This document shows, in pieces, positions 868-43,177 of a DNA stretch of 43,177 nt. The stretch covers positions 1 through 43,177 of the forward strand of contig JABGPZ010000067.1 in assembly GCA_018644725.1 (NCBI GenBank), read 5' to 3'. The notes below the pieces were generated by a model. The model was not told the origin of the DNA. It saw only the letters and a program-made list of their open reading frames with translations, and searched no databases. Position 1 is the stretch's first letter, and each line of letters starts with the position of its first letter. This stretch comes from Phycisphaerales bacterium (lineage in GTDB: Bacteria > Planctomycetota > Phycisphaerae > SM23-33). Position numbers and translations under genes: made by a program.

Positions 868-1344
868 ATGCCATTCTTTACCGGAGAACATGAGACGACG
901 ATTGGTGCCAAGCGGCGCCTGCCGATAGCGTCTGCCCTTCGCGAAGAGGTGCTCGCGGGTGAGGGCCGGGACTTTTACCTGGTGCTCGGCCCGGATCGCC
1001 GGCTTTGGCTGTACCCGGATGAGTACTATCGAACACTCGCTTCGACGATGAAGCGGTCGGTGGTTCCTTCGGTCAAGTCGCGCGGCAGTTTGGGATTGAT
1101 GACGGCGATGGCCCGGCTGATTAAGCCTGACGCGCAAGGGCGCGTGGTGCTGCCGGAAAAATCGCTCCAGCGTGCTGGCCTCACGGACTCCAAAGAGGTC
1201 ACCCTCGTCGGCGAAGACGATCACATCGTGATCTGGCCCACGAGCGACTGGGAAGACTACATTGAAGCTTCTCTCGACGGGTATGCGGAGGCATTGGACG
1301 CCGCCGCGGCAGCAATGGACGCTGCGACTCCGCCGCAGAGCTAA
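868..1344 (+). CDS. mraZ: Transcriptional regulator MraZ
   Basis: A 158-residue protein with two SpoVT/AbrB-like halves. The N-terminal half reads FFTGEHETTIGAKRRLPIAS, close to the MraZ pattern F.G.HE.TID.KGRL.IP; the second half contains LIKPDAQGRVVLPEKSLQRAGL, the usual repeat of the motif. The start at 868 is chosen over an upstream in-frame ATG at 748 because CGAGGA lies 7 bases before it and the MraZ fold begins immediately. MraZ is a DNA-binding ring protein that usually opens the dcw cluster and regulates it, including its own promoter. The first motif is degenerate (GAKRR in place of DxKGR). The tail after the second domain is alanine-rich and slightly longer than usual. Confidence 0.88.
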   Translation: MPFFTGEHETTIGAKRRLPIASALREEVLAGEGRDFYLVLGPDRRLWLYPDEYYRTLASTMKRSVVPSVKSRGSLGLMTAMARLIKPDAQGRVVLPEKSLQRAGLTDSKEVTLVGEDDHIVIWPTSDWEDYIEASLDGYAEALDAAAAAMDAATPPQS

Positions 1345-1391
1345 TCAAGGATGAATCCGTTGACAGGATGTCGGCGGTGGTACGGAAACCG

Positions 1392-1590
1392 GAGTCAAGG
1401 ACGACTCAATTGGGACAGGACGTCCCGAAGCGGACACGGAACGATTCACTTTCATCGGATGGTGAGCACTGGCATGGAGGCCGGGCTCGAGCGACGAGGC
1501 CACTGGTCGAAAGACCCTGGACCGACAGCGCCTGTGGCATCACAGCATGCCGGCCGGCGTCGCCGCTGGTGAAAGTGAATCCCTCCGCTT
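1392..1590 (+). ncRNA. Structured RNA element between mraZ and rsmH
   Basis: This stretch is noncoding but folds strongly. The core is closed by 1428-1434 with 1584-1590 (7 bp, AAGCGGA/TCCGCTT) and by a long stem 1443-1458 with 1566-1581 (16 bp including two G-U pairs). Inside are a hairpin 1464-1488 (GAGC and CTGGC pairing GCCGG and GCTC, one bulge) and a second arm 1491-1501 with 1552-1563 (GCGACG/CGTCGC and GGCC/GGCC). That arm carries a GGTC-GAAA-GACC hairpin (GNRA loop, 1505-1516) and a CTGTG-GCAT-CACAG hairpin (1532-1545). Two small hairpins precede the core (1392-1407 and 1412-1426). The G-U pairs fold only as plus-strand RNA. It ends about 24 bases before the rsmH ribosome site, so a leader that controls rsmH and the genes after it is likely. 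Actinobacteria have an 'mraW RNA' motif at this location; kinship with it was not tested. Confidence 0.6.
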
Positions 1591-1628
1591 TGTACGTTCT
1601 ATGTCGCACGAGTTGAAAGGACTACCGC

Positions 1629-2522
1629 ATGGACAGTCATGCCCCTGTATTGCTTGATGAAGTACTCACGCTCCTCAACCCCGCCGGGGATGACTGGATC
1701 GTTGATTGTACTCTCGGCCTGGGCGGACACAGCCAGGCGATGCTCGAAGCCGCCGGAGCCGATGCACACCTTATCGGCCTGGACACCGACGAAGCCAACG
1801 TATTGCGCGCCAAGGACAACCTTGGGCCATTGGCGAAACAAGGCCGATTTTTCCACGCTAATTTTTCGTCCCTCCCCGATGTTCTCGAAGCCATTGACCG
1901 TCCTGCGGTGGATGTGATTCTCGCGGATTTGGGATTTTGCTCGAACCAGATGGACACGCCCGAACGCGGGCTGAGCTTCCAGGCCGACGGGCCGCTGGAT
2001 ATGCGCCTGGACACGAGCGAAGGCCCCACGGCCGCGGACATTGTCAACACCACCGACGAAACCGACCTTGCCAACCTCATCTATGAGTTTGGCGAAGAGC
2101 GCCTCAGCCGACGCATTGCGCGGCGGATTGTCGAAGCCCGCGCCGACGGGGCGATCGAGACGACGGCCGCCTTGGCCGAGATCGTTCGCAAGGCCTATCC
2201 GCCGGCCGTTCGGCACAAAAGCCGGATCGACCCCGCTACACGCACCTTTCAGGCCCTGCGCATCGCGGTCAACGATGAACTCGGCGTGCTGGACGAGCTT
2301 TTGGCGATGCTGCCAGAGATCCTCGCGCCCGGCGGGCGATGCGGGATTATCAGCTTCCATTCGCTGGAAGATCGCCGCGTGAAACACCGCTTCCGCGACC
2401 TGCGCGAGACGCACCAAGTAGAACTGCTGACGAAAAAACCGATTATTGCGACGCCGGAAGAAATCGAGCGCAACCCGCGCTCCCGTTCGGCGAAGCTTCG
2501 AGGAATACAGAAGAGAGATTGA
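1629..2522 (+). CDS. rsmH: 16S rRNA m4C1402 methyltransferase RsmH (MraW)
   Basis: A 297-residue SAM-dependent enzyme that methylates N4 of C1402 in the ribosomal decoding site. Family signatures are present in order: HAPVLLDEVL at the N terminus, the SAM-binding loop DCTLGLGGHS, GLDTDEANV, VDVILADLGFCSNQMD (usually DLGVSSxQLD), RGLSFQADGPLDMRLD, VNTTDETDLANLIYEFGEE, RIDPATRTFQALRIAVNDEL and the C-terminal IISFHSLEDRRVKHRF. Length is normal. AAAGGA (1616-1621) is spaced 7 bases before the ATG. It follows mraZ as in most dcw clusters and is preceded by the structured RNA element. The FCSN variant in the DLG motif is a mild departure from the family. Confidence 0.95.
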   Translation: MDSHAPVLLDEVLTLLNPAGDDWIVDCTLGLGGHSQAMLEAAGADAHLIGLDTDEANVLRAKDNLGPLAKQGRFFHANFSSLPDVLEAIDRPAVDVILADLGFCSNQMDTPERGLSFQADGPLDMRLDTSEGPTAADIVNTTDETDLANLIYEFGEERLSRRIARRIVEARADGAIETTAALAEIVRKAYPPAVRHKSRIDPATRTFQALRIAVNDELGVLDELLAMLPEILAPGGRCGIISFHSLEDRRVKHRFRDLRETHQVELLTKKPIIATPEEIERNPRSRSAKLRGIQKRD

Positions 2523-18811: not shown

Positions 18812-18846
18812 GCCGGGCTAGTCTTTGCCCTGAAAGGGCAACAGTG

Positions 18847-19060
18847 TTTAGCCGGGGGCGTAAGCCCCCGGTAGTGGACGCCAAAAAGCCGGGGCCTTAG
18901 TTTCTTGGAGGGAGCTTGCGACCGGAAAGACTAAGGCAAGCCCCGGCGAATTCCACAAGCCCTGGATGGGCGAAAGAGAAATGTAAGATGGGCGTTTCTT
19001 TCGCCCCTTCGGGGCTCTTTTTATTATGCCTCATTCCGGGGGCTTACGCCCCCGGCTAAA
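18847..19060. repeat. REP-like composite element, copy A
   Basis: The element is bounded by two exactly inverted 25-base units (18847-18871 and 19036-19060), each itself a hairpin with stem CCGGGGGC/GCCCCCGG and loop GTAA or TTAC. Inside are a long inverted repeat (18888-18900 with 18931-18947), a hairpin around GGGCGAAAGA (18968-19006) and GCCCC-TTC-GGGGC followed by a T-run (19003-19022) that could act as a terminator. Internal blocks recur inverted at 42892-43032. This organisation resembles REP/BIME repeats, which are moved in trans by RAYT transposases; no such gene is present here. Confidence 0.75.
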
Positions 19061-19109
19061 TCCTTTCGCGCCTTCGGCGCTCGATACAACCTTGTCACAT
19101 AATCAGCAG

Positions 19110-42755: not shown

Positions 42756-42891
42756 AGAACTACAAGGGCTGGAAATGTTCCGATGTGAATTTTGGAACCG
42801 TTTGCTTCGTATTGAATATAGGGGGTTGTCTGCTTTGTAGTGGACATTGTCGATGGGATTTTTGTGTTAGGCCCGAAGGGCCGTAAGAATG

Positions 42892-43032
42892 TAGCCGTGG
42901 GCGTAAGCCACGGAAAGCGGATAAAAAGAAAAGAGCCCCGAAGGGGCGAAAGAAAACGGAGTTTCAAAATTAGCCGGGGCTTGCCTTGGTCTTTCCGGTC
43001 GCTTCGCTCCCTCCAAGAGCCTAAGGCCCCGG
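42892..43032. repeat. REP-like composite element, copy B (inverted)
   Basis: It is collinear with copy A in reverse. First is a hairpin with loop GCGTAAG (42892-42913), in which a T-A pair replaces a G-C pair of copy A. Then comes a 25-base block (42931-42955) identical to the reverse complement of 18995-19019, containing GCCCCGAAGGGGC. Last is a 60-base block (42973-43032) matching the reverse complement of 18888-18947 apart from a few changes and a one-base shift. The outer hairpin on the far side is missing. Confidence 0.75.
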
Positions 43033-43177
43033 TCTCTGCCGCGCTACAATCATCGGCGGGTAACGCTTTTGGCTTTTACCTGTTAAAATAGATTCTCGAC
43101 TTTTGCTGCTATGATTGGTCTTTTAAGGGTTCTTTGAATAATAGCGTTTCGACTTTGAGTATTGTATAATGCGGTCA

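Follow-up and report, generated by a model that had tools for sequence, protein, structure and literature searches.

A probable CsrA-bound leader RNA between mraZ and rsmH in one order of Phycisphaerae-related planctomycetes

Leaders bound by CsrA or RsmA, such as those of glgC, hcnA, hag and flaA, carry hairpins with ANGGAN hexaloops closed by C-G, with several sites per RNA, one of them at the Shine-Dalgarno (SD) sequence or start codon. ANGGAN hexaloops constitute a high-affinity CsrA/RsmA site, and the SELEX consensus RUACARGGAUGU lies mostly within six-base loops (PMC7652899; PMC3791407). One CsrA dimer is able to span two sites with 10-63 nt between them (PMC7652899). CsrA can also be titrated by messengers, as by flaA mRNA and the fimAICDHF leader (PMC4894983). 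The literature searched contained no account of CsrA action on the division/cell-wall cluster or in planctomycetes. The present study concerns the gap between mraZ and rsmH, where sequence comparison indicates that a cis-acting, CsrA-bound leader probably controls the mraZ-rsmH transcript in one order of Phycisphaerae-related planctomycetes. The locus resembles the known CsrA/RsmA leaders in its C-G-closed ANGGAN hexaloops, in the number of its sites and, in relatives, their placement at an SD or start codon, in a spacing that suits one dimer, and in the presence of a CsrA gene. It differs in that the transcript is a planctomycete mraZ-rsmH (dcw) messenger, one site is embedded in a coding region, a start codon is buried in a helix formed with late codons of the same open reading frame (ORF), and the RNA is retained after loss of this ORF. 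With the CsrB/CsrC and RsmY/RsmZ small RNAs and the flaA and fim mRNA sponges it shares tandem GGA hairpins (up to 7), but it lies inside a protein-coding transcript, and a promoter and terminator of its own were not found.

The window analyzed is the whole 43,177-nt stretch of a contig from a Phycisphaerales genome (G000; 2.54 Mb, 112 contigs). According to the ORF list, mraZ (868..1344, plus strand) encodes 158 aa from the ATG at 868; it is 34-64% identical to the mraZ neighbours of relatives. The rsmH gene (1629..2522, plus strand) encodes 297 aa, starts with AUGGAC, and is preceded by the SD sequence AAAGGAC (1616..1622, plus strand), which is an ANGGAN sequence itself. The mraZ stop at 1344 and the rsmH ATG at 1629 are separated by 284 nt. 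A consensus scan revealed a promoter-like site upstream of mraZ, and neither promoter nor terminator in the mraZ-rsmH gap. The mraW RNA (RF01746) of Actinomycetales is likewise located upstream of mraW/rsmH; the present element belongs to another lineage and has another structure. Rfam gave nothing at the gathering threshold for the element, mraW RNA included, and a search of 20 relatives also gave no Rfam match, in line with the preliminary description, which had considered an element independent of the actinobacterial RNA. A DUF3800-XI match at 1503-1520 (E 0.01) was rejected; it covers only the GGUCGAAAGACC hairpin and is below cut-off. Elsewhere in the window, matches to the Acido-Lenti-1 RNA (RF01687) were observed at 18826-18871 (minus), 19036-19081 (plus) and 42869-42913 (minus). 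The stretches near 18885-18950 and 42971-43033 have a GC-rich palindromic repeat in common, so these matches look like dispersed REP-like elements and not an sRNA gene.

The RNA at 1392-1620 folds at -108.6 kcal/mol (z = -5.96), and none of 200 shuffles was equally stable. The folded element that the preliminary description had placed between mraZ and rsmH is thus real, and its two long stems are as that description drew them: a predicted probability of about 1 applies to the 16-bp stem, 1443-1458/1566-1581, as well as to the outer one. The outer stem, P1, is formed by 1426..1434 and 1584..1592 (plus strand); its 5' strand matches the position of P1 in relatives, and it ends 24 bases upstream of the rsmH SD, as had been claimed. 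Within the 16-bp stem, the main helix P2 (1444..1458 with 1566..1580, plus strand) has 15/15 positions paired. P1 and P2 are separated by an internal loop with the sequence ACGGAA (1436..1441, plus strand), identified from the sequence and its alignment with relatives. The interior drawn earlier fared less well. A GNRA hairpin, GGUC-GAAA-GACC, is present as sequence at 1505..1516 (plus strand), but its pairing probability is 0.01, and relatives have no counterpart; the same lack of a counterpart applies to the nested arm 1491-1501/1552-1563. G-U pairs had been taken as a mark of the plus strand. This argument is weak because the minus strand of the region also gives a good fold (z = -4.74). 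Folding alone is therefore no proof of RNA, and the strand is set by covariation and by GGA hairpins found only in the sense orientation. These hairpins, beginning upstream of 1392, were absent from the earlier account, as was a small gene of the relatives that has its start codon within the main helix and is degenerate in G000.

A close RsmH match was found in 55 of 60 related genomes. The mraZ-rsmH gap is also long in the relatives examined (mostly 280-690 nt), and most of it is filled by a small ORF of ~80 codons with a good SD sequence, ending mostly 5-50 nt upstream of rsmH. In one 687-nt gap (L023), an inverted repeat (TGCTTCAAGAAAAGAGCAAGTCAGGCACACA and its complement) is inserted between mraZ and the small ORF. 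The ORF is present in 34/38 genomes of the order, G000 being without it, and occupies one place per genome, except in G008, where a copy is divided between two contigs. It encodes an unannotated dcw protein of ~80 aa (gaps L010-L038, L161, L185, L194 and L206), for which Pfam, NCBIfam and PDB gave no credible match; its AlphaFold model is helical with low confidence (pLDDT 71). Differences at the three codon positions of codons 21-60 (0.41/0.31/0.54) fit a translated gene. Elsewhere in the class, weaker relatives of the C-terminal part of the protein also occur between mraZ and rsmH. The start of the small ORF, AUGCUCAUCCCCCAG, pairs with its own late codons, CUGGGGGAUGAGUAU, and this pairing is P2: the 5' strand begins with the AUG, and the 3' strand corresponds to the (A)LGDEY codons. 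P1 (ACCCGG/CCGGGU) is the outer helix flanking the small-ORF SD, and codons 13-16 form a hairpin, H, with an ANGGAN loop. In silico, nearly all relatives have the AUG buried in P2; in the predicted ensembles the AUG is closed (median unpaired 0.05) and the SD is open (0.80). The SD itself is a GGA site, 51-60 nt from the GGA of H.

RNAalifold found P2 and H unprompted in the alignment of relatives. Among 30 relatives of the same order, with 29 structure pairs, 88.1% of cells were paired, vs 33-47% when partners were slid by 1-3 columns, and both sides had changed in 108 cells vs 38.9 in shuffles. Under a tree-based null custom-written for this analysis, structure pairs took ranks 1, 2, 4, 9 and 18 among 30,135 column pairs, with two-set E-values of 2e-4, 3e-4, 2e-3, 0.014 and 0.033; the best pairs require at least 6 to 8 state changes on the RsmH tree. 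The covariation of P1 is suggestive (0.07-0.09), and P1 of relatives varies on both sides. Compensatory changes in the 1443-1458/1566-1581 helix, which the preliminary description had named as the support to look for, are present in relatives. A conserved RNA structure is near certain in the order and likely in the window. In two model matches outside the order (L216 and L208), few pairs of P2 are retained, and these matches were rejected as reflecting coding sequence.

In G000, the small-ORF start codon has changed from AUG to AUU, and what remains of the frame is interrupted and shorter. The ACGGAA at 1436-1441 occupies the place of the relatives' small-ORF SD, AAGGAU. When the two P2 strands of G000 (AUUCACUUUCAUCGG / CUGGUGAAAGUGAAU) are aligned ungapped, the first to AUGCUCAUCCCCCAG, all 15 pairs are kept, and in 5/15 both bases differ from the consensus. 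A covariance model built from relatives only matched the window at exactly 1444-1582 on the plus strand (score 6.5 bits; E 0.14 across the window); with the search limited to the gap and filters off, E was 0.0012. The model alone is not significant here, so homology rests on synteny, the ungapped helix, and a remnant of the small ORF's RQRL codons, CGACAGCGCCUG (1523..1534, plus strand), which two alignments with relatives support. In a second genome, G014, the ORF carries a frameshift, but the predicted probability of P2 and H is about 1, and the model scores 52.4 bits. The DNA compared comes from genome bins; sequencing errors could contribute to the frameshift of G014 but cannot account for the numerous indels of G000. 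The two ORF losses are independent. It can be argued from two losses with the RNA retained that the RNA is selected for its own sake.

Four GGA hairpins, all on the plus strand, precede P2 in the window: GAC-AGGAU-GUC (1362..1372; pairing probability 1.0), GGU-ACGGAA-ACC (1379..1390; 0.6), GAGUC-AAGGAC-GACUC (1392..1407) and GGGAC-AGGAC-GUCCC (1412..1426), the second and third with ANGGAN hexaloops. Hairpins 3 and 4 compete with the long-range outer stem, which extends to a point shortly before the rsmH SD and is favoured over them by about 7 kcal/mol; this arrangement is a possible switch. The homologue of H, CUGGC-AUGGAG-GCCGG (1469..1484, plus strand), was located by alignment and has a probability of 0.06 here. 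In 29 gaps (11.2 kb), 48 ANGGAN (CANGGANG) hairpins were found in sense and 0 in antisense; the ANGGA sequence alone occurs 151 times in sense vs 19 in antisense. With loops of 5-7 nt allowed, 48 hairpins were counted in all vs 2.6 expected from shuffles, and 4 in the G000 gap vs 0.06. A genome-wide CsrA-like background was rejected as an explanation, since 270 kb of G000 showed no enrichment of ANGGAN hairpins; the G000 gap is the only cluster of >2 GGA hairpins per 250 nt in 756 kb sampled. Arrays reach 7 hairpins in G017, the richest, and an array is found in G006 as well; in several relatives, H is the sole hairpin to pass the loop filter, or no hairpin passes. At the H site, CANGGA falls in the same alignment columns in all sequences. 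The in-ORF site is always CAN-GGA, encoding Gln or His and then Gly, and the Gly codon is GGA in 25/25 cases vs 25/119 elsewhere. That the unlike residues Gln and His are swapped while the GGA stays fixed is a hallmark of RNA constraint. At the other end of the gap, the rsmH start AUGGAN forms a hexaloop with a stem of 4-10 bp in about a dozen genomes (L016, L019-L021, L023, L025, L027, L033, L035, L036, L038 and L206), the longest being the 10-bp stem GCCGGCGUC-AUGGAC-GAUGCCGGC. Such a hairpin is likely to allow a direct CsrA block of translation. The rsmH of G000 has no start-codon hairpin, and the ANGGAN sequence in its SD is not in a hairpin.

G000 encodes a CsrA (PF02599, E 9e-25) that retains the RNA-binding residues L4 and R44. 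CsrA was found above the family cut-off in 34/38 genomes searched, G000 included; csrA was not detected in G017 (82% complete). The csrA leaders served as an internal control. In about half of 20 genomes of the order, CUCC-ANGGAA-GGAG lies at the csrA SD (the leaders sharing (C)UCC-ANGGAA-GGA(G) are L217-L221, L230, L231, L235 and L236), and several other csrA leaders have the SD GGA within a hairpin loop. The common leader hairpin suggests that csrA may be autoregulated, and CsrA is the likely ligand of the mraZ-rsmH leader. FliW is a protein antagonist of CsrA. It is absent from 35/35 genomes of the family of G000, G000 included, and fliW is near csrA in 3/3 genomes of the sister family, whose gaps contain no hairpin beyond the in-ORF one. 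Flagellin was found in 26/38 genomes and not in G000. The missing FliW leaves room for an RNA antagonist of CsrA, a correlation only.

A model can be proposed from these features. In most members, the leader RNA would also encode the ~80-aa protein, with its start codon buried in the long-range P2 helix formed with its own late codons. The SD GGA would be displayed in the internal loop that separates P1 from P2, with H located 51-60 nt downstream, and a single CsrA dimer may bridge the two GGA sites, keeping the messenger closed. The upstream GGA hairpins and, in many genomes, the rsmH-start hairpin would make rsmH translation depend on free CsrA. As to direction, the leader would act through repression of the small ORF and rsmH, or through CsrA titration. 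In the window genome, the ORF has decayed, with P1, P2, the GGA sequences and the four upstream GGA hairpins kept, which suggests that the RNA acts without the small protein; its target there would most likely be rsmH translation or message stability.

It is rather unlikely that the transcript serves chiefly as a CsrA sponge, its GGA array titrating CsrA from other mRNAs and rsmH control being secondary. The arrays of up to 7 hairpins in G017 and G006 would suit this role, as would the lack of FliW in the family, the sparse gaps of the FliW-bearing sister family (at most the in-ORF hairpin) and the precedents of flaA mRNA and the fimAICDHF leader (PMC4894983). However, a sponge requires high RNA abundance, the scan showed no separate promoter or terminator, and the location of sites around the starts of rsmH and the small ORF points to cis control. 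It is quite improbable that the helices serve the small ORF alone, in its translation or mRNA stability, and that the GGA loops bind another protein or nothing. The near-universal burial of the AUG by P2 fits this idea; P2 and H nevertheless persist in the ORF-less G000 and G014, and the exact CAN-GGA constraint, together with the matching csrA leader hairpins, fits CsrA specifically. The chance is similarly small that the G000 element is a remnant of the small gene in decay, with no function and with a perfect P2 arising from quasi-palindrome correction. In favour of this reading are the degenerate ORF, the weak model score (6.5 bits) and the fact that G000 alone represents its genus. Quasi-palindrome correction could mimic P2 retention in G000 alone, but not the GGA loops, which template switching would not preserve, nor the structure in relatives; moreover, the fold z of -5.96, the hairpin cluster unique in the sampled genome and the same retention in the independently degenerate G014 speak against decay.

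A metabolite-sensing riboswitch or transcription attenuator upstream of rsmH is very improbable: the leader position and the long, complex fold would suit one, but no core except GGA is conserved and unpaired, the gap has no terminator, and the interior arms are not conserved. The earlier proposal of a leader RNA upstream of rsmH stands insofar as an RNA element is present in the transcript, and not as to a ligand pocket, of which there is no sign. The large inverted repeat within an intergenic gap is almost certainly not a mobile element (MITE), since it is single copy in the genome and has a counterpart at a conserved position across the order.

In sum, this study found RNA helices conserved between mraZ and rsmH, GGA hairpins restricted to the sense strand, and a CsrA gene in the same genome, with a CsrA-bound leader as the probable explanation. 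A more speculative and rather unlikely extension is that the FliW-less family made the mraZ-rsmH messenger a sponge and target of CsrA at once, and that a structure born in a small gene outlived that gene, as a regulator made of RNA only, in at least two lineages. If this is true, free CsrA would set, and be set by, the expression of the division cluster. The leader offers specific, mutable sites for testing a link between CsrA and the division/cell-wall cluster. An RNA structure in which a regulator site is embedded appears to have evolved inside a coding sequence and survived the death of the gene, and a small unannotated dcw protein has been uncovered across the class.
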